Positions 9,775-17,543 of a stretch of 48,001 nt of DNA are shown here, in pieces. Source of the DNA: Rhodospirillales bacterium 69-11 (GTDB taxonomy: Bacteria > Pseudomonadota > Alphaproteobacteria > Acetobacterales > Acetobacteraceae). The position numbers were made by a program, and so were the translations under genes. Positions within the stretch are counted from its first letter, which is position 1; each line of letters begins with the position of its first letter. The stretch is from assembly GCA_001898425.1 (NCBI GenBank), contig MKTV01000049.1, positions 47,667 through 95,667 of the forward strand. Reading direction: 5' to 3'. Under the pieces are notes generated by a model. The model was not told where the DNA came from. It worked only from the letters and a program-made list of their open reading frames with translations, and did not search any database.

Positions 9775-11256
9775 CTACAGCAGCGCGCGCCGCACCGCGT
9801 CCTGCCAGCCGGCGATCATGCAGTCGCGCCGCGCGGGCTCCATCCGCGGCGTGAAGCTCCGCGCGCAGCTCCAGGTGGCGGACAGTGCGTCGAGCCCCGG
9901 CCAGACGCCGGTTGCGAGCCCCGCCAGGAACGCGGCGCCGCGGGCAGTGGTCTCGAGATCGGCCGGCCGCTCCACCGGCGCCTGCAGCATGTCGGCCAGG
10001 AACTGGCAGAACCAGTCGTTCGCCGCCATGCCGCCATCCACGCGGATCGCCTGCGCGCGGCCGGCCCCGTCGGCGCGCATCGCCTCCGCGAGGTCGTGCG
10101 TCTGGTAGGCGACCGATTCCAGCGCGGCGCGCGCGAGATGCGCGGCGGTGGCATCCAGCGTCAGCCCGCAGATCAGCCCGCGCGCCTCGGGCTGCCAGTG
10201 TGGCGCGCCGAGCCCCACGAAGGCCGGCACCATGTAGACGCCGTGATTGTCCGCGACGCGCGTCGCCATGTCGTCGGTCTGCGAGGCGTGGGTGATCAGC
10301 CCGATCCCGTCGCGCAGCCACTTCACCGCGGCGCCGGCGACGAAGATCGCACCCTCCAGCGCATAGGTCGTGCGCCCGTCGAGCCGGTAGGCCGGCGTGG
10401 TCAGCATGCGGCTGCCGGAGGTCACCGCCTCCGTCCCGGTGTTCAGCAGCATGAAGCAGCCGGTGCCGTAGGTGGATTTCGCCATGCCGGTGGAAAAGCA
10501 GGCCTGCCCCACCAGCGCCGCCTGCTGGTCCCCTGCCATGCCGGCGATCGGAATGGGCGCCCCCAGCAGGTCGGCGGTCGCATGGCCGAACAGCGTGCTG
10601 TTGTCACGGATCTCGGGCAGCAGTGCTGCGGGGATCCGGAACAGGCGCAGCAGCTCCTCGTCCCAGCACCCGCGGTGGATGTCCATCAGCAGCGTGCGCG
10701 CCGCGTTGGTCGCGTCCGTCGCATGCACCTGCCCGCCGGTGAGGCGCCACAGCAGGAAACTGTCGATCGTGCCAAACGCGAGTTCGCCCCGTTCGGCGCG
10801 CGAGCGGGCGTCGGGGATGGTGTCGAGCAGCCAGGCGAGCTTGGTCGCGGAGAAATACGGATCGATCAGCAGGCCGGTGCGGAACTGGACCAAGTCCTCC
10901 GCGCCGTCGCTGCGGAGCTGCGCGCAGGCCGCAGCGGTGCGCCGGTCCTGCCAGACGATGGCGCGATGGATCGGCTGGCCGGTGGAGCGGTCCCACACCA
11001 CCACGGTCTCACGCTGGTTGGTGATGCCGATCGCGGCGATCTCCGTCACCGCGACGCCGGCCTCGGCGACGGCCTGGCGCAGCGTGGCGACGGTGTCGCG
11101 CCAGATATCCTCGGGATCGTGCTCCACCCAGCCGGGCTGCGGATAATGCTGCGCGAACTCGCGGCGTGCGACCGCGCGGGGCTGGGCCGCCTCGTCATAG
11201 ACGATGCAGCGCGTGGACGTGGTGCCCTGGTCGATCGCCAGCACGAATCGGCTCAT
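9775..11256 (-). CDS. glpK: Glycerol kinase
   Basis: 493 residues, standard for FGGY-family glycerol kinases. It phosphorylates glycerol to sn-glycerol-3-phosphate in the cytoplasm. Seen are the N-terminal phosphate-binding segment [25 protein letters not shown] with IVWQDRRT, the [12 protein letters not shown] block and, near the C-terminus, [17 protein letters not shown] followed by [12 protein letters not shown]. The open frame continues 102 codons upstream through repeat DNA (start 11562), but that extension is not kinase-like. ATG 11256 begins MSRFVLAID; an ATG at 11274 is a less likely alternative. No glpF, glpD or glpR lies nearby. The upstream side is the repeat-rich region with the first inverted-repeat element. 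Confidence 0.95.
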
Positions 11257-11345
11257 CCGGACGGTCCCTCTCATTCCCGGCGGGAGTTTACACGAGGTCG
11301 GGGGCGAGGGCGCGTCGGGGATGGGAGGTCCGGACGGGAGTGCTG

Positions 11346-11406
11346 AGGTGCGTCCGGGTGGGTGGTCCGAGCGGGAGCGGGAAGGTGCGTCCGGGTGGGT
11401 GGTCCG
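11346..11406. repeat. Direct repeat, period 37 bp
   Basis: A 24-bp segment beginning AGGTGCGTCCGGGTGGGTGG occurs at 11346-11369 and again at 11383-11406. It directly abuts the left arm of the first inverted-repeat element. No function is apparent. Confidence 0.65.
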
Positions 11407-11807
11407 TGCTGGCAGCGGCAGTTTTGATTCAGCACAGAGTTGAGGCGAGCTGAGGCGAGCCACAGAGGGGTTGGAATCGGCAGCGCCGCCTCGGGGCCAT
11501 GCCCGGCGATCCGCCGCCTGTGGATGCCCACGAGATCTTCGGTACGGCTTGAAGCGCGGCAACCGGCCTCAAAGCGTGTCGATCGAGGGCTCCGTCGCCG
11601 CGACCGAGCGGCGCGAAGCGCAGTGATTTCGATGATCCGAGAGGCGCGTGGCTCCGTGCCGAAGACCGCGGCCCGAAGATCGCAAACGCGCGCGCCTCAC
11701 GCCGGCATCCGGCGCGAGCCGCTTCGCCACAAGGGTCCGTTCCGCTCTGTGGCTCGCCTCCACTCGCCTCAACTCTGTGCTAAATCAAAGCTGCCGCCGC
11801 CAGCACG
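11405..11807. repeat. Inverted-repeat element 1 (49-bp core arms)
   Basis: Core arms 11419-11467 and 11745-11793 are inverted copies of a 49-bp sequence; homology extends outward to CGTGCTGGC/GCCAGCACG, giving ~62-bp arms. Each arm reads CAG-YTTTGATT-YAG, CACAGAG, TT, GAGGCGAG, a variable dinucleotide, GAGGCGAG, C, CACAGAG, pointing inward. The 277-bp interior has no gene. The same arm occurs twice more in element 2 (14609-15008), around an unrelated interior. No transposase is present. It resembles a non-autonomous mobile or intergenic palindromic element; classification is inference. Confidence 0.8.
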
Positions 11808-11810
11808 AAT

Positions 11811-11912
11811 GGAGCCGCCCGGGCGCACAAACAGGGCCGCCGCGACGGGCACGACCGGAGCCGCCCGCACGCACAAACAGGGCCGCCGCGACGGGCACGA
11901 CCGGAGCCGCCC
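11811..11912. repeat. 46-bp tandem repeat, 2.2 copies
   Basis: A 46-bp unit beginning GGAGCCGCCC and ending GGGCACGACC occurs at 11811-11856 and 11857-11902, with a third partial start at 11903-11912. Copies differ at about two positions. It follows the right arm of the first inverted-repeat element immediately and may be part of the same accretion of repeats. Confidence 0.85.
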
Positions 11913-12023
11913 CGCCGTTCTCCACCCCCGTTGACGACGCGGCACCCTCCCGGCGACTCTCACCCAGCCCAGCCGACAGGATTTCCGCTTGCCCTTGCCT
12001 CCCGACCGACTGGCCGCCCGTCC

Positions 12024-13106
12024 GTGAACGAGGCCGGCCACCACCTCGAAATCCGCGACTTGCGGAAGCTCTACAACGGACATGCCGCCGTCGCCGGCCT
12101 CGACCTCGACGTGCGCCGCGGCGAGATGGTCGTGCTGCTGGGTCCGTCCGGCTGCGGCAAGACCACCACGCTGCGGCTGATCGCCGGGTTCATCCAGGCG
12201 GATGGCGGCGACATCCGCGTGGACGGGCGCAGCATCCTCGGCCTGCCGCCGCATCGGCGCGACATGGGCATCGTGTTCCAGTCCTACGCGCTGTTCCCGC
12301 ACCTCTCGGTCGCGCGCAACGTCGCGTTCGGGCTGGAGATGCGGCGCCAGCCGCGCGCCGCCATCGCCGCGCGTGTCGCTTCCATGCTCCAGCTCGTGAA
12401 GCTCGAGGCGTTTGCGGACCGGCTGCCCCGGCATCTCTCGGGGGGGCAGCAGCAGCGCGTCGCCCTCGCCCGCGCGCTGGCGATCCAGCCCAACGTGCTA
12501 CTGCTGGACGAGCCGCTGTCCAACCTGGACGCCGCGCTGCGCCAGGACGTGGCGCGCGACATCCGCCTGCTGCAACGCGACGGCGGACTGACCGCGATCA
12601 TGGTCACGCACGACCAGGACGAGGCCATGGCGATGGCCGACCGGCTCGTGGTGATGCGCGACGGCGGCGTGCAGCAGATCGGCACGCAGGAAGACCTGTA
12701 TGAGCGGCCCGCCACGCCCTTCGTCGCCCGCTTCATCGGCCGCAGCAACGTGCTGACCGGCACGCTGCGCGAGGGGTCGGTGCTGGTGCTGGAGGACGGA
12801 ACGCCGGTCCGTCTCGCCGGCCGATATGCCGCGTCGGGTCGCTGCACCCTGGCCCTGCGCCCAGAACGGATCACGATCGGCACCGAGGGCCGGGTGCCCG
12901 CGCGCGTCACGCTGGGCACCTATCTCGGGGCCACGCTCGAGCACGTCCTGACGCTGGGTGGCGAGACCAGCGTGGTGGTGCGCCAGCCCACCGGCACCGA
13001 CATGCACGCGCCCCTCCGGACCTCGGGCGACGCCGTGTCGCTCGACTGGGCCGCCGGGGCGGAGCGGGTGTTCGACGCCGGGGAGCGCCCGATTTCCCCC
13101 GCCTGA
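12024..13106 (+). CDS. ABC transporter ATP-binding protein (PotA/FbpC/UgpC-like)
   Basis: About 360 residues. Walker A GPSGCGKTT, Q-loop IVFQSYALFPHL, signature LSGGQQQR, Walker B VLLLDEPLSNLD and switch His in MVTHDQDEA are intact. The last ~110 residues form a TOBE-type domain, as in importers for polyamines, iron or sugars. It would energise an inner-membrane importer. No permease or binding-protein gene is next to it, so the substrate is unknown and it must work with components elsewhere. GTG 12024 is chosen because similarity begins shortly after; a TTG at 11931 would add 31 atypical residues. It is the first gene of a three-gene block flanked by the two inverted-repeat elements. Confidence 0.85.
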   Translation: MNEAGHHLEIRDLRKLYNGHAAVAGLDLDVRRGEMVVLLGPSGCGKTTTLRLIAGFIQADGGDIRVDGRSILGLPPHRRDMGIVFQSYALFPHLSVARNVAFGLEMRRQPRAAIAARVASMLQLVKLEAFADRLPRHLSGGQQQRVALARALAIQPNVLLLDEPLSNLDAALRQDVARDIRLLQRDGGLTAIMVTHDQDEAMAMADRLVVMRDGGVQQIGTQEDLYERPATPFVARFIGRSNVLTGTLREGSVLVLEDGTPVRLAGRYAASGRCTLALRPERITIGTEGRVPARVTLGTYLGATLEHVLTLGGETSVVVRQPTGTDMHAPLRTSGDAVSLDWAAGAERVFDAGERPISPA

Positions 13107-13146
13107 CCCACGGGTCTAGGGTCACGGGACCGTTCGGGAGCCCGTC

Positions 13147-13950
13147 ATGGACATCGCACTCGCCGTCATCGCCGCGGCCGTCCTGCTGATCCTGCTGCGC
13201 TCGATCCGCATCGCCACCGAATGGCAGCGTGCCGTCGTGCTGCGGCTGGGCCGATTGCATCGCGTGAAGGGGCCCGGCCTCTATTTGCTGCTGCCGCTGA
13301 TCGACCAGGTGGCCCAGGTGCTCGACCTGCGCATCCAGACCACCACCATCACCGCCGAACAGGCCCTGACCCGCGACACGGTGGCGGTGGGCGTCGATGC
13401 GATCGTGTTCTGGCAGGTCGAGGATGCGGAGGCTGCCGCGATCCGCATCGCCAATTACCGGGAGGCGATCGAGCGCGTCTCCCAGACCAGCCTGCGCGAG
13501 ATGATCGGCAGCACGGACCTCTCCCGCCTGCTCGCCGACCGCCAGTCGGCCGACGAGGCATTGCGGCGCAGCATCATCCAGAAGACCGCCGATTGGGGCG
13601 TGACCGCGCGCAGCGTGGAGATCAAGGACGTGGTGATCCCGCGCGAGCTGCAGGACGCCATGAGCCGCCAGGCGCAGGCGGAGCGGGAGAAGGATGCGCG
13701 GGTCACGCTCGCCTCGGCGGAGCGCGAGATCGCGGAGCAGGTGCTGCAGGCGGCGCGGCTGTACGGCAGCGAGCCGAACGCGCTCAAGCTGCGGCAGATG
13801 AACCTGCTCTACGAGATGAACAAGGAGCGTGGCGCCACGGTGCTGATCCCGACCGACATGGCGGCGAGCCTCGGCTCCGTCGTGGGGCTGGAGGAGGCGC
13901 TGGCCGCCACGCGCGCTCAGCCGCCGGTCCGGCCGAACCAGATGCCGTAG
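13147..13950 (+). CDS. Slipin family (SPFH/stomatin-like) membrane protein
   Basis: 267 residues. An N-terminal hydrophobic hairpin/anchor (residues ~3-20) is followed by the SPFH domain with EWQRAVVLRLGR, GPGLYLLLPLIDQV and the DTVAVGVDAIVFWQV block, then RQAQAEREKDARV and an alanine/glutamate-rich coiled coil. Slipins scaffold membrane microdomains and are often encoded with an NfeD protease partner; no nfeD is adjacent. GGGAG upstream supports the ATG at 13147. The gene starts 40 nt after the ABC ATPase and may be co-transcribed with it. Its 3' end overlaps the convergent DUF202 gene by 34 bp. Confidence 0.92.
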   Translation: MDIALAVIAAAVLLILLRSIRIATEWQRAVVLRLGRLHRVKGPGLYLLLPLIDQVAQVLDLRIQTTTITAEQALTRDTVAVGVDAIVFWQVEDAEAAAIRIANYREAIERVSQTSLREMIGSTDLSRLLADRQSADEALRRSIIQKTADWGVTARSVEIKDVVIPRELQDAMSRQAQAEREKDARVTLASAEREIAEQVLQAARLYGSEPNALKLRQMNLLYEMNKERGATVLIPTDMAASLGSVVGLEEALAATRAQPPVRPNQMP

Positions 13951-14321
13951 AGCGCGCTGAGCGCGACCAGGGCGAGGAACCCGTTCACCGCCAGGAGCAG
14001 CGGGGGCGAGATCCGCCGCGTGTCGGGCTTCGGCGGCGGTGTGCCGGGCCGCAGCTCCCGCCAGACCCCGGCGGCGAAGGAGAAGGCGGCGAACAGCACG
14101 AGCACCGATCCCATGAGGGAGATCATGATGTCGGGCACCACGCCGCCGAGCACCTTCTTGGCGCCCACGCCGCTGGCCAGCGCCGCGAGGCCGGTGCGGA
14201 CCCAGGCCGCATAGGTCCGCTCCGCCGCGAGCACGGTGCGGTCCGCTGCGAGTTCGGTGCGCCGGTCGGCGGTGTCCGTCAGTTTCTCGGCAGTGCCGGT
14301 GTTTACGCGTGCGTCTGTCAT
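13917..14321 (-). CDS. DUF202 (YidH-type) membrane protein
   Basis: 134 residues. After a hydrophilic ~28-residue N-terminus comes the family signature LAAERTYAAWVRTGLAALASG, then three hydrophobic segments at ~41-58, ~65-85 and ~107-127. DUF202 proteins are small inner-membrane proteins of unknown function; some relatives belong to eukaryotic VTC complexes. The open frame runs much further upstream (to 14969) through 21-bp repeats and inverted-repeat element 2, but only the part from ATG 14321 is protein-like. No strong ribosome-binding site is visible. Its stop lies inside the slipin gene on the other strand, so the two 3' ends overlap. Confidence 0.78.
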   Translation of the reverse strand: MTDARVNTGTAEKLTDTADRRTELAADRTVLAAERTYAAWVRTGLAALASGVGAKKVLGGVVPDIMISLMGSVLVLFAAFSFAAGVWRELRPGTPPPKPDTRRISPPLLLAVNGFLALVALSALYGIWFGRTGG

Positions 14322-14385
14322 GAAGGCGAAAGCGTCCGGGGCGGGGGGTGGTTTCCGGGGGGAGGGGCCGGAGGTGCGGGAGGGA

Positions 14386-14577
14386 GTCGCCGGGCGCTCC
14401 ACCGTCGTCGCCGGGCTCCACACAGTCGTCGCCGGGCCCCTCACCGTCGACTCGAGCCCCCACACCATCGTCGCTGGGCCCCTCACCGTCGTCGCCGGGC
14501 TCCACACAGTCGTCGCCGGGCCCCTCACCCTCGTCGCCGGGCGCCCCACCGTCGTCGCCGGGCTCGACCCGGCGATC
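14386..14577. repeat. Degenerate 21-bp tandem repeat array, about nine units
   Basis: Units are variants of GTCGTCGCCGGGCYCCWCAC. The last unit leads into GGGCTCGACCCGGCGATCC, a short palindrome of the same style as repeats at 22206-22288 and 39453-39606. Units abut with no unique spacers. Both strands stay open because the period is a multiple of three, which explains spurious long ORFs here. Confidence 0.8.
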
Positions 14578-14608
14578 CCCACCGGCACCACGGGTGCGTG
14601 CGGCCGGA

Positions 14609-15008
14609 GGTTCGTGCCGAACCGGCTCAGCTTTGATTCAACACAGAGTTGAGGCGAGCTCAGGCGAGCCACAGAGAGATTCGGACCCTGGACGGCCCCG
14701 GGGTTCGTTCCGCATGCCATGGCCCTCGCCAGAGCCGGACGACTCCCGGGCGAGCCGTGGCGGGTGGTCTCCCGAGCGTACGCACGTCCCGGCCAACCAC
14801 TCGGTTGGCCGAATTTTTTCGGCGCTTCGCGCCGCGCGAACGCACCATTGGGAGTCCTTGGCGGCGCCTCGTGCGTCACCGGCCCTCCGGCGGGACCTCC
14901 CTGCCCCCAGATCGCCCCCGCTGCCGCGGACCGCGCGATCCCTCTGTGGCTCGCCTCATCTCGCCTCAACTCTGTGTTGAATCAAAACTGATGCATCCCG
15001 CACGAACC
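14609..15008. repeat. Inverted-repeat element 2 (49-bp core arms)
   Basis: Core arms 14628-14676 and 14942-14990 are inverted copies of the same 49-bp sequence as in element 1, differing at only a few positions, mainly the dinucleotide between the two GAGGCGAG-like blocks. Outer flanks also match as GGTTCGTGC/GCACGAACC (14609-14617 and 15000-15008) around a variable ~10 bp. The 265-bp interior differs from that of element 1, except for a short CGGCGCGAAGCGC motif in opposite orientation, and holds an intrinsic terminator. No coding capacity for a transposase exists. Confidence 0.8.
14790..14819 (+). terminator. Intrinsic terminator inside inverted-repeat element 2
   Basis: CGGCCAACC at 14790-14798, loop ACTC, GGTTGGCCG at 14803-14811, then AA and six T. 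This is a textbook Rho-independent terminator for rightward transcription. No rightward gene lies directly upstream; the nearest is the slipin gene ending at 13950. It may end a small transcript starting inside the element. Confidence 0.75.
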
Positions 15009-15046
15009 ACGCCCGAGCACGCACCCTCCCGTCACCCGCCGCCGGT

Positions 15047-15120
15047 CACCCTCCCGCAACCGTCACCCTTCACCCTCCCGCGTCCGTCTCACCCTCCCGC
15101 GTCCGTCACCCTCGCCGTCC
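15047..15120. repeat. CACCCTCCCG tandem repeats
   Basis: Four imperfect units of 17-24 bp, built on CACCCTCCCGCGTCCGT, run up to the 3' end of the ThDP enzyme gene. Low complexity and C-rich on the plus strand. No role is apparent. Confidence 0.6.
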
Positions 15121-15122
15121 TC

Positions 15123-16742
15123 TCACCCACGGCCAGGAGAGATGAACTCCCACGGTGCGACCTCCTTCCCGATATCGGTCATGACCTCGATCAGCGTGGG
15201 GCTGTTCGCGGCCAGGGCCTGCCGTAGCGCGTCGCGCAGGCCGGCGGCGTCCTCCACGCGCCAGGACGGCACGCCGAATGCGCGGGCGAAGGTCTGGAAG
15301 TCGGGGTTCTGCAGCACCGACCCGGAGTCCCGGCCGTCGAACAGGCGGCGCTGGTCGCGCAGCACGTTGCCGTAGGCGCCGTTGTTGAACAGCACCGTCA
15401 CCAGGTTGATCCCGTGCTGCGCGGCCGTCGCCAGCTCTGCGCCGCCGAACAGGAACCCGCCATCGCCGGTGACCGCCACCACCGGCCGATCCGGTTGCCC
15501 CACCTTCACGCCGAGCGCGGTCGGGAAGCCGGCACCCAGGGTGCCCGAAAACCCCGAGGTCACCAGCGTTCGCGGCTGGTGGAACGGAAAGCCGAACCAG
15601 GAAACGTAGCCGACTTGCGTCATCTCGTCGCAAAGGATGCCGTCCTCGGGGAGGACCTCGCGGATCGCCTCCAGGTAGCTCATCTGCGGCTGGATCGCCT
15701 GGATGCGCGACGCGGCGCTGTCCTTGGCCGCCGCGATCGCCGCGGCGCGGGCGGGATCGCGACGCTCCGCCATCACGGCGACCAGGGCGCGCGCGGCGTC
15801 CGCCGTGTCGGCGACGATCCCGAGGTCGACGCGCAACCGCCGCATCTCGGCGGGGTCGATGTCGATGCGGGCGATCTTCAGGCCGGCGGGCATCTTGCCC
15901 CAGCGGCCGGTCGGCACCTCGAGCCGCGTGCCGAAGGCGACCAGCAGGTCGGTGTCGGGCCACAGCTCGTAGGCGGCCGGGACGGTGAGACCGAGTGGGT
16001 GGCGGTCGTCGACGATGCCGCGGCCGCCGCGAAAGGAGACGACCGGCGCGCCGACCCGTTCGGCCAGGGCGCGGATCTCCGGCGCAGCGTCCAACGCGCC
16101 GCCACCCACCCAGATCATCGGCGCGCGGGCGGTGTCGAGCAGCTTGGCCAGCGCGGCGATCTTCTCGGGGTCGGGTACCGGGTTCGGGAAGGTCGGCAGC
16201 GGATCCTGCGGGGTGACCTCGGCCTGGGCGGGGAACTGGTCCCACGGCATTTCCAGCGCGACCGGACCGCGGCGGCCGGAGAGCATCTCCTGGAAGGCGC
16301 GGGCGACCTTGATGGGCGCCTCGGACGGGTGCTCGATCCGGTCGGCGTGCTTGAGCAGGGAGCGCAGGGTGGCGAGCTGGTCGGGCAACTCGTGCAGCTG
16401 GCCCCGGCCGCGGCCGATCATCATGCTGGGCACCTGGCCGGTCAGGCACAGCACCGGCGCGTTCACGCCCCAGGCGGTGGCAAGCGCCGCCGTGGTGTTC
16501 AGCACGCCCGGCCCGGGGACGACGGCGTAGGCGGACGGCTTGCCGGTCGCGCAGGCATAGCCCAGCGCCATGTAGGCGGTGGTCTGCTCGTGCCGCGCAT
16601 TGATGAGACGGAGGCGGTTGGCGTTGCGGGCGAAGGCGTCGAACAGGCCGTAGACCTGCACGCCGGGCAGGCCGAACACGGTGTCGATCCCGTGCCGCAG
16701 CAACCCGTCGACGATCGCCTCACCCCCGGTCATGCGCGGCAT
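15123..16742 (-). CDS. Thiamine diphosphate-dependent enzyme (acetolactate synthase large-subunit-like)
   Basis: 539 residues, complete. N-terminal PYR domain with the catalytic Glu in ARHEQTTAYMALGYA, central Rossmann-like domain with PMIWVGGGA, and C-terminal PP domain with the ThDP/Mg motif GDGGFLFGGAELATAAQ ending in VLFNNGAYGN. Related enzymes are acetolactate synthase, benzoylformate decarboxylase and other 2-oxoacid enzymes; no ilvN regulatory subunit follows, so a catabolic decarboxylase/carboligase is as likely as valine synthesis. ATG 16742 has GGAGG five bases upstream; 16781 is an alternative in-frame start. The ribosome-binding site and the A of the ATG lie in the 3' arm of a 12-bp hairpin. 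Confidence 0.88.
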   Translation of the reverse strand: MPRMTGGEAIVDGLLRHGIDTVFGLPGVQVYGLFDAFARNANRLRLINARHEQTTAYMALGYACATGKPSAYAVVPGPGVLNTTAALATAWGVNAPVLCLTGQVPSMMIGRGRGQLHELPDQLATLRSLLKHADRIEHPSEAPIKVARAFQEMLSGRRGPVALEMPWDQFPAQAEVTPQDPLPTFPNPVPDPEKIAALAKLLDTARAPMIWVGGGALDAAPEIRALAERVGAPVVSFRGGRGIVDDRHPLGLTVPAAYELWPDTDLLVAFGTRLEVPTGRWGKMPAGLKIARIDIDPAEMRRLRVDLGIVADTADAARALVAVMAERRDPARAAAIAAAKDSAASRIQAIQPQMSYLEAIREVLPEDGILCDEMTQVGYVSWFGFPFHQPRTLVTSGFSGTLGAGFPTALGVKVGQPDRPVVAVTGDGGFLFGGAELATAAQHGINLVTVLFNNGAYGNVLRDQRRLFDGRDSGSVLQNPDFQTFARAFGVPSWRVEDAAGLRDALRQALAANSPTLIEVMTDIGKEVAPWEFISPGRG

Positions 16743-16776
16743 GCCACCCTCCGTCTGATTTTGGCGGAGGGTGGCA
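16742..16776 (-). promoter_or_regulatory. Hairpin sequestering the ribosome-binding site of the ThDP enzyme
   Basis: A perfect 12-bp inverted repeat: TGCCACCCTCCG, 11-nt loop, CGGAGGGTGGCA in the transcript sense. The second arm contains the Shine-Dalgarno GGAGG and overlaps the first base of the start codon at 16742. No T-tract follows, so a terminator is unlikely. This would block ribosome access unless opened, by an RNA, protein, temperature or upstream translation. Confidence 0.6.
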
Positions 16777-16826
16777 CGCAAGGCGGATCAGGAGAAGCGG
16801 GCGATCGGCTCCGGTGCGGGGCCCGC

Positions 16827-17543
16827 TCAGGTGCGCGGACGGGCCGGCGGCGCGATCGGCTGCGGGTCGGTGGAGACGGTCCAGAGGCGCGGCTGGTCCG
16901 GGCGGCGCAGCGCCGGAGTCGCGGGGACCGGTGCGGGCGTGGGCGTCGCGGCGTTCGGCGTCGTCTCCGTCATGCCGGCGGGCAACGGCATCAGCGCGTC
17001 GCAGGCGCCGCCGCTGCGCGACACCTGCGTCACGGGCCGGCCGTCGGGACCCGGCGCGCCGGTGCGGATCATCTGCTGGCAGGTGCCGGCCGGGGTGGAG
17101 ATCGTGGTGACGAGGACGCTGCCGGGGGCGGGGACGGCAGCGCCGTCGCGGGCCAGGATCGGGTCACCGGCGAACCCGCGTGCGGCGCCCTGGCGCATCG
17201 CGGCGTCGATGAGCTGTTGCGGATCGGGCATCGGCATCGCCATCAGCGCGTCCATCTCCGCCATCATCTGCCGGATCATGCCGAACGCGGGGGGCACCGG
17301 CGCGGCCACCGGGACGAAGCCGGGGGGCAGCGCCACGGAACGCGCCGGCAGGGCGGTGGCGCCGGCGGGCAGGACGATGACCGTGGCGCCGGCCGGGACG
17401 TCGATCACCTGCGCGCCGTGCGCCTGGACGATGGCGGGGGCCGCGCCGTCCCGCGGGGTGAGGCGGCTCTGCGCCACGGCGGGCAGGGCGACCGTCAGGG
17501 CCGCGAGGGCGGACATGGCCACGAGTGCTGGCGTTCTGGGCAT
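16827..17543 (-). CDS. Secreted proline/alanine-rich protein, unknown function
   Basis: 238 residues with a clear Sec signal peptide: MPRT, a hydrophobic core to about residue 20, and AVAQS as cleavage site near 25. The mature part has alanine/proline/valine-rich stretches, a methionine-rich segment (MIRQMMAEMDALMAMPMPDP, ~89-108) and two cysteines in TCQQM and ACDAL that could form a disulfide. No recognised domain. It is transcribed in the same direction as the ThDP enzyme 84 nt downstream, but no functional link is evident. Likely periplasmic or envelope-associated. Confidence 0.7.
   Translation of the reverse strand: MPRTPALVAMSALAALTVALPAVAQSRLTPRDGAAPAIVQAHGAQVIDVPAGATVIVLPAGATALPARSVALPPGFVPVAAPVPPAFGMIRQMMAEMDALMAMPMPDPQQLIDAAMRQGAARGFAGDPILARDGAAVPAPGSVLVTTISTPAGTCQQMIRTGAPGPDGRPVTQVSRSGGACDALMPLPAGMTETTPNAATPTPAPVPATPALRRPDQPRLWTVSTDPQPIAPPARPRT

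Follow-up and report, generated by a model that had tools for sequence, protein, structure and literature searches.

Among described systems, the closest to the elements reported here are REPIN/RAYT, in which, according to the portions available of two reports, inverted ends flank helper genes, gene-less inverted doublets are abundant in intergenic DNA, ends and gene co-evolve, the gene is fast-changing and the abundance of the ends correlates with the gene (PMC3116915, PMC2817692). A further comparison is offered by the Rpn or YhgA-like recombination-promoting nucleases (PF04754), a PD-(D/E)XK family tied to gene acquisition, for which the part of the source available describes independent rpnC insertions at one place (PMC5350276). 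Two small elements were studied in a stretch of 48,001 nucleotides from Rhodospirillales bacterium 69-11 (contig MKTV01000049.1, positions 47,667 to 95,667), the whole of which is called the window. Each is bounded by inverted arms, neither encloses a gene, and both are probably non-autonomous members of a small-repeat family, spread in trans by an arm-reading nuclease of the GxxExxY family.

The gene was found between the same arms at another place of the genome to which the window belongs (G000; 6.48 Mb, 124 contigs). At G000:C65:147,855-148,380 (L138 3956-4481) the arms, identical to those of the window over a 17-base core, enclose a frame matching TIGR04256 (GxxExxY) with an E value of 8.3e-42 over profile positions 3-115 of 116, and also PF13366 (PDDEXK_3; 4.9e-39), its sole Pfam match. 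A gene with the same ends, as sought after the preliminary description of this DNA, thus exists between window-type arms, and it is not a known transposase (no genome-wide transposase search was made). The TIGR04256 search of G000 together with its congener G030 gave three GxxExxY genes, all of them between inverted unit arrays; the other two are flanked by different units, of the CACGGAG type in G000:C5 and of the CGCAGATGAA type in G030:C69.

The profile was run against 398 genomes of the phylum and matched in 65. A total of 72 loci were read, comprising 71 of the 100-odd listed places (30 as loci, 39 fetched and 2 of G000) and one G030 gene; the sample leans to high scores and is non-random, and L213 was not used. 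Inward-facing two-unit arrays were concentrated within 160 nt of the gene (left side 5.9 per kb, right side 7.6, against 0-0.5 farther out), and outward-facing ones near the gene amounted to 0.6-1.1 per kb. In 45 of the 72 loci an inward-facing array of two units was present to the left as well as to the right, at no more than 250 nt from the gene. By a looser count an arm class was assigned to 61 loci, 60 of which are on the 71-row protein tree. The classes RAG, GAT, GAA and GAC required three changes on that tree, which is the minimum (shuffled mean 12.6; 0 of 200 shuffles as low). The match between arm class and protein is not a product of host composition, because several genomes (G271, G086 and G232) hold two classes each. 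A control with permuted left-right pairing often scored as high as the true pairs; since units shared between taxa raised the permuted scores, the positional profile and the tree test were relied on instead.

The abundance of the arms also follows the gene. A three-unit arm pattern was present in 51 of the 398 genomes, with at most 66 occurrences; the reversed pattern, as a control, had no match. It occurred in 39 of the 65 genomes with GxxExxY and in 12 of the 333 without it (p 4e-26); in the richest family the figures were 37/45 and 11/29 (p 1.5e-4), and outside it 2/20 and 1/304 (p 0.01). This pattern covers one arm class and therefore misses the others. In viral contigs a single-protein search gave no matches and an alignment search four loci, and arms were seen in all four viral-collection loci; the exact arm pattern had no match in viral contigs, and no GxxExxY was found in phage records. 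A plasmid search with element 1 as query was negative. Arms were present in four of the eight GxxExxY loci of plasmid records, one from Sphingomonas and three from outside the phylum (Bernardetia, Bacteroides finegoldii and Gemmatirosa). In another such record, from Fusobacteria (L239), the gene is seemingly flanked by direct, not inverted, repeats (AGATTTAATCCGTGTACCTAT).

These results bear on an explanation in which the arm pairs are intergenic hairpins serving the host as transcription terminators or mRNA stabilisers, with the GxxExxY gene a chance passenger in some of them. It is considered unlikely, as the arm class follows the protein tree and differs between copies of the same genome.

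In the window itself, a 35-base arm core gave four matches with up to three mismatches, and none in 100 shuffles. The four arms lie where the preliminary description had placed them and form two inward-facing pairs:

11405-11470, plus strand: left arm of element 1, 66 nt; its 49-base core, 11419-11467, reads CACAGAG-TT-GAGGCGAG-NN-GAGGCGAG-C-CACAGAG
11471-11741, no strand: interior of element 1, with the core CCGAGCGGCGCGAAGCGC, common to other gene-less elements, at about 11600-11670
11742-11807, minus strand: right arm of element 1, core 11745-11793
14627-14680, plus strand: left arm of element 2, core 14628-14676
14681-14937, no strand: interior of element 2, in which the core motif is reduced to its hairpin part, at about 14820-14835 of the minus strand
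14938-14991, minus strand: right arm of element 2, core 14942-14990

The arms had been described as exactly 49 bp long, which holds for the 49-base core but not for the arm, as the inverted repeats are longer: 66 nt and 91% identical in element 1 (11405-11470 / 11742-11807), 54 nt and 93% identical in element 2. When 49 arms of two genomes were compared, conservation extended from about -31 to +36 relative to CACAGAG and included an outer GTCCGTGCKG, located about 30 bases outside it. The dinucleotide separating the GAGGCGAG blocks differs from copy to copy, as had been noticed. The interior lengths first given, 277 and 265 bases, were also correct, but CGGCGCGAAGCGC, then taken to be all that the interiors share, is part of a core of about 60 nt. 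The two window elements are called non-autonomous because these interiors fall short of the length of the gene (about 350) and neither element aligned with the gene-bearing copy outside the arms. A search of Rfam with window positions 11300-15100 gave no match. Next to the elements there are tandem repeats of 21, 37 and 46 bases (14386-14574, 11319-11405 and 11783-11920), and GTGCGTCCGGGCGGCTCCG-like repeats are found in the flanks of several elements.

The interior core reads roughly CCGAGYGGCGCGAAGCGC...GAACCGAGNGG...CGCGTGCC. Its hairpin is present at 17 element sites of G000 and G030, and the core aligns over 14 of them; the other three, window element 2 included, have little beyond the hairpin and were omitted from the alignment. 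As a folded RNA the core was rejected (covariation term +0.3; change on both sides in 1 of 9 pairs), and, covariation giving no support, it is regarded as a motif of sequence only. In G000:C60 a gene-less element with CACGGAG-type arms (L347) carries the interior core of the window family, so that gene-less bodies are common to two arm types. The motif GCGCGAAGCGC, known from gene-less interiors of the window genome, also stands between the gene and the right arm in L350, an unrelated metagenome contig.

Copies of the arms are numerous in two genomes. With up to three mismatches, the 35-base core matched 16 times in G000 (reversed control 0) and 20 times in G030, the only positive genomes of the 59 searched; the 57 others, including 31 other congeners, were without match. 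The exact 17-base core CACAGAGTTGAGGCGAG has 20 copies in G000, in 12 elements, and is more numerous in one congener. In a named-genome collection 13 stretches matched a looser pattern, all from one Rhodospirillales metagenome-assembled genome (JAFKLG, apparently G030; the window genome was perhaps left out of the scan). The arms are therefore not restricted to the window, nor do they always occur one by one and at random spacing. Among 50 arms in the window and loci L131-L160 (seed with up to one mismatch), neighbours less than 600 nt apart formed 18 inward pairs, three same-strand pairs (all in G030:C99) and no outward pair, and the inward pairs had core starts 68 to 509 nt apart. The remaining arms are lone, apart from one 3.7-kb pair in G030:C33. 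This last pair (L145 4019-7738) faces inward around ordinary-looking genes and may be a composite element or two lone arms. In G030:C99 (L156 4011-4450) four consecutive same-strand arms, spaced 188, 187 and 64 bases, resemble tandem copying of compact hairpins.

Elements were found in G030 at places matching window element 1, C42, C21, C19 and C65b, of which the last is truncated where its contig ends. A comparison of the two genomes at window element 1 and C42 gave identities of 86-96% for the arms, 55-61% for the interiors, 62-72% for the intergenic flanks and 90-95% for the genes. These values, from two shared sites, agree with the preliminary description, which proposed a non-autonomous mobile element conserved in its ends and not in its body; its mobility we infer, since a search for target duplications was negative and no element was seen to move. 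The genes beside the window elements are:

9775-11256, minus strand: FGGY carbohydrate kinase, outside the element
12027-13106, plus strand: ABC transporter ATPase with TOBE domain
15123-16781, minus strand: thiamine-pyrophosphate enzyme, neighbour of element 2

Element 2 and the adjoining thiamine-pyrophosphate enzyme gene are both lacking at the matching place in G030, by an indel of about 2.3 kb (window 14346-16827), which is not a clean empty site because the neighbouring gene is absent too. In several relatives this enzyme gene and an SPFH gene are on different contigs.

Each of two compact arm pairs folds as a single long hairpin (-43 and -41 kcal/mol; z -11.1 and -10.9), whereas the two single arms that were folded gave no significant hairpin (z -0.67 and -1.74; 44 and 10 of 200 shuffles fold equally well). 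Such very strong folding would suit a terminator or stabiliser of the host, and so would the conservation of the arms near the coding-DNA level at the two shared sites and an arm identity that is higher within an element (0.846) than between elements (0.783; p 0.0003). Element 1, however, sits between divergent genes, where a terminator has no clear job.

The long hairpin formed by an inverted doublet is also a likeness to REPIN/RAYT, together with helper genes between inverted ends, many intergenic gene-less doublets, co-evolution of ends and gene, a gene that changes fast, and an end abundance that follows the gene. On the other hand, the helper here is a PD-(D/E)XK protein, and RAYTs are transposases of the tyrosine (Y1) kind (no RAYT search of the genome was made), and the ends here are direct arrays of 7-8-base units where REP (repetitive extragenic palindromic) ends are small palindromes. 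Because neither the defining protein nor the palindromes were found, the family is not filed as a member of REPIN/RAYT. With the miniature inverted-repeat transposable elements (MITEs) of insertion sequences it has in common that the elements are short and gene-less with inverted ends; it differs in the lack of a target duplication and in a full-length relative without a known transposase inside. Copy number, intergenic location and inverted ends could accordingly be those of ordinary MITEs or REPINs of an undetected transposase (a DDE insertion sequence or a RAYT) elsewhere in the genome. We regard this as improbable, given that the gene inside the same arms is PDDEXK_3 by its sole Pfam match (G000 was not searched for transposase or RAYT genes), that a target duplication was looked for in 17 elements and not found, and that a single arm, unlike a REP, has no significant hairpin of its own.

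Entire elements are gained, lost or exchanged at fixed positions between housekeeping genes, the arms and the gene changing jointly. At fabD|fabG, 121 genomes of one sphingomonad genus included at least 37 uninterrupted matches, at least 29 with a gap of 369-518 nt and at least 3 with a gap of 92-123 nt; 29 of the at least 32 gapped loci (counted by eye) were fetched. A recognisable GxxExxY frame was present in 25 of these 29 (24 by motif, and L312 with the motif GLLESAHE), although at least those of L311 and L315 are broken; one further locus, L313, is decayed. The three short gaps (L303, L309 and L320) hold hairpins unrelated to the GxxExxY element, GTCATCCCGGCGAAAGCCGGGAT in L303 and other sequences in L309 and L320, and the site is therefore a hot spot shared by at least two repeat families. 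The distance between the fabD end motif and the start of fabG was 31-63 nt in the 20 empty loci that were measured; filled loci mostly had 480-522 nt. On a fabD-fabG host tree of 45 of the 62 loci (the others lack the fabD end motif; L242 was omitted as a duplicate of L208), the filled or empty state requires 12 changes, at least seven of which are forced by well-supported branches.

The elements at fabD|fabG carry arms of the types CGCGGAG (9), CGCAGAG (9), CGCGAAG (6), CGCAAAG (2) and CGCRACG (2). Left and right arms match by 0.71 within an element and by 0.45 between elements; the 95th percentile of the latter is as high as 0.81 because many elements share a type. GxxExxY proteins with the same arm type are more alike than those with different types (identity 0.730 vs 0.672; p 0.0002, 28 elements), while the identity of the hosts is no higher (0.734 vs 0.739; p 0.55, 20 rows), and a Mantel test of host versus protein on the 20 rows gave r 0.14 (p 0.19). 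Host relatedness is thus no predictor of arm type at this site, a further point against hairpins kept for the service of the host. In L237 and L317, for instance, the hosts are 92% and the proteins 74% alike, and the arms are different.

There are other fixed sites of this kind. A trpC start signature lies beside 15 of the 72 loci (trpD|trpC; gene names confirmed in L184), and at hslV|hslU a GxxExxY frame was found in 6 of the 11 gapped loci fetched. In L169, L183 and L184 the outer TGA of the left arm (TGAACC) is the in-frame stop codon of trpD; in some loci (L165 and L172) the start codon of GxxExxY immediately precedes the left arm, which is thereby included in the translated frame.

Recurrence of the hot sites fabD|fabG, trpD|trpC and hslV|hslU could be explained by homologous exchange, if the elements were a non-mobile chromosomal system for chromosome upkeep, DNA repair or defence whose swaps at fixed sites proceed via recombination of the flanks. 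Such a system has little probability in our view: at trpD|trpC, L181 and L184 have flanks that are 90-94% identical on both sides and different elements with proteins 61% alike, so the ends of any exchange must be close to the element, and new sites must still arise somehow.

An alignment of 18 chosen GxxExxY proteins has 13 invariant columns, likely active-site residues included; E22, D62, E72, K74, Q86 and Y90 are the same in all 18. In PD-(D/E)XK nucleases E, D, E-x-K and Q form the active site, and the GxxExxY protein, judged by its sequence, keeps the putative residues of such a site, of the RecB/Cas4 type. One of the nearest weak sequence matches was 4ic1 (E 0.47; titled uncharacterized), which we take to be a Cas4. 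PADLOC matched the L350 protein to Cas4 with an E value of 0.0016 and gave no such match for the G000 protein. Elsewhere a GxxExxY domain was called by one pipeline where another tool called cas4, according to the part of the source available (PMC8934634). Cas4, a RecB-family nuclease, is therefore among the nearest weak sequence matches of GxxExxY, but GxxExxY is far shorter than the Cas4 models and the matches are too weak for membership. With Rpn the family has in common a PD-(D/E)XK nuclease tied to gene acquisition; it belongs to another Pfam family, RpnA has little sequence specificity, and flanking unit arrays are not mentioned in the available part of that report (PMC5350276).

Spread in trans by a GxxExxY nuclease, as favoured here, would proceed as follows; the linkage of gene and arms and their co-evolution are shown by the results above, whereas binding, cleavage and the route of movement we infer. 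A full member is a unit of about 0.45-0.85 kb, consisting of an arm, the GxxExxY gene and the inverted arm, and each arm is made up of three or four units of 7-8 bases, spaced by about one helical turn. Most likely the protein binds arrays of the units that belong to its subtype: phased arrays, alike ends and the matching of subfamily to unit type indicate that it reads the arms, and the protein-binding array proposed in the preliminary description fits with the wide tie of the family to such arrays. It probably acts on the paired arms, perhaps folded as a cruciform or as a hairpin in single-stranded DNA; cutting is suggested by the conserved PD-(D/E)XK residues, and action in trans by the many gene-less pairs. 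It would then copy or move its own element and the gene-less relatives into intergenic sites. A simple DDE transposase is disfavoured because target duplications are lacking.

Several observations weigh against this interpretation. Two-sided two-unit arrays are lacking in 27 of the 72 loci and 11 of the 72 could not be classed; four of the eight plasmid-record loci (Prevotella, Fusobacteria, Persicobacter and Treponema) showed no long inverted arms; and 12 genomes have the three-unit pattern with no GxxExxY match, 26 the gene with no pattern. On the host tree, filled loci of fabD|fabG show weak clustering (a value as low was reached in 29 of 500 shuffles). Five elements are at matching places in G000 and G030, so movement has been slow at least there, and near-identical copies in the same genome, which would indicate recent jumping, were seen neither for the two window elements nor among the 72 loci. 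In the 17 elements compared, the mean longest direct match was 5.65 (6.01 in shuffled sequences). The gene is present in one of the 12 exact-core elements of G000, and the family there may therefore be a relic. An AlphaFold model of the protein from three sequences reached a pLDDT (predicted local distance difference test) of 40.7 and was not used.

The family appears to be undescribed, as far as absence from one open library, which is not proof of novelty, can tell. Among the matches listed by that library, which is without preprints and most subscription papers, none linked GxxExxY or PDDEXK_3 with flanking repeats; in the text portions it returned GxxExxY was named in passing only, and long repeat strings matched vertebrate titles only.

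Whether GxxExxY proteins in general are the enzymes of a widespread and unrecognised class of mobile DNA is, in our judgement, evenly balanced. Such a class would consist of one-gene elements whose PD-(D/E)XK nuclease reads phased arrays of 7-base units as its ends, which slip between the genes of operons without breaking them and drive large populations of gene-less hairpins; the CACAGAG, CGCAGAG, CACGAAG and CACAGATGAA repeats of many bacterial genomes would be their footprints. The GxxExxY family has no described function in the literature searched. Its link to the arrays that flank it suggests a role open to testing and puts forward an explanation for one class of short repeats in intergenic DNA. 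If GxxExxY does move DNA, it would be a nuclease-driven counterpart of REPIN/RAYT based on a quite different enzyme, and insertion inside operons without gene breakage, combined with swappable recognition types, would be of interest for genome evolution and possibly as a DNA-targeting tool.

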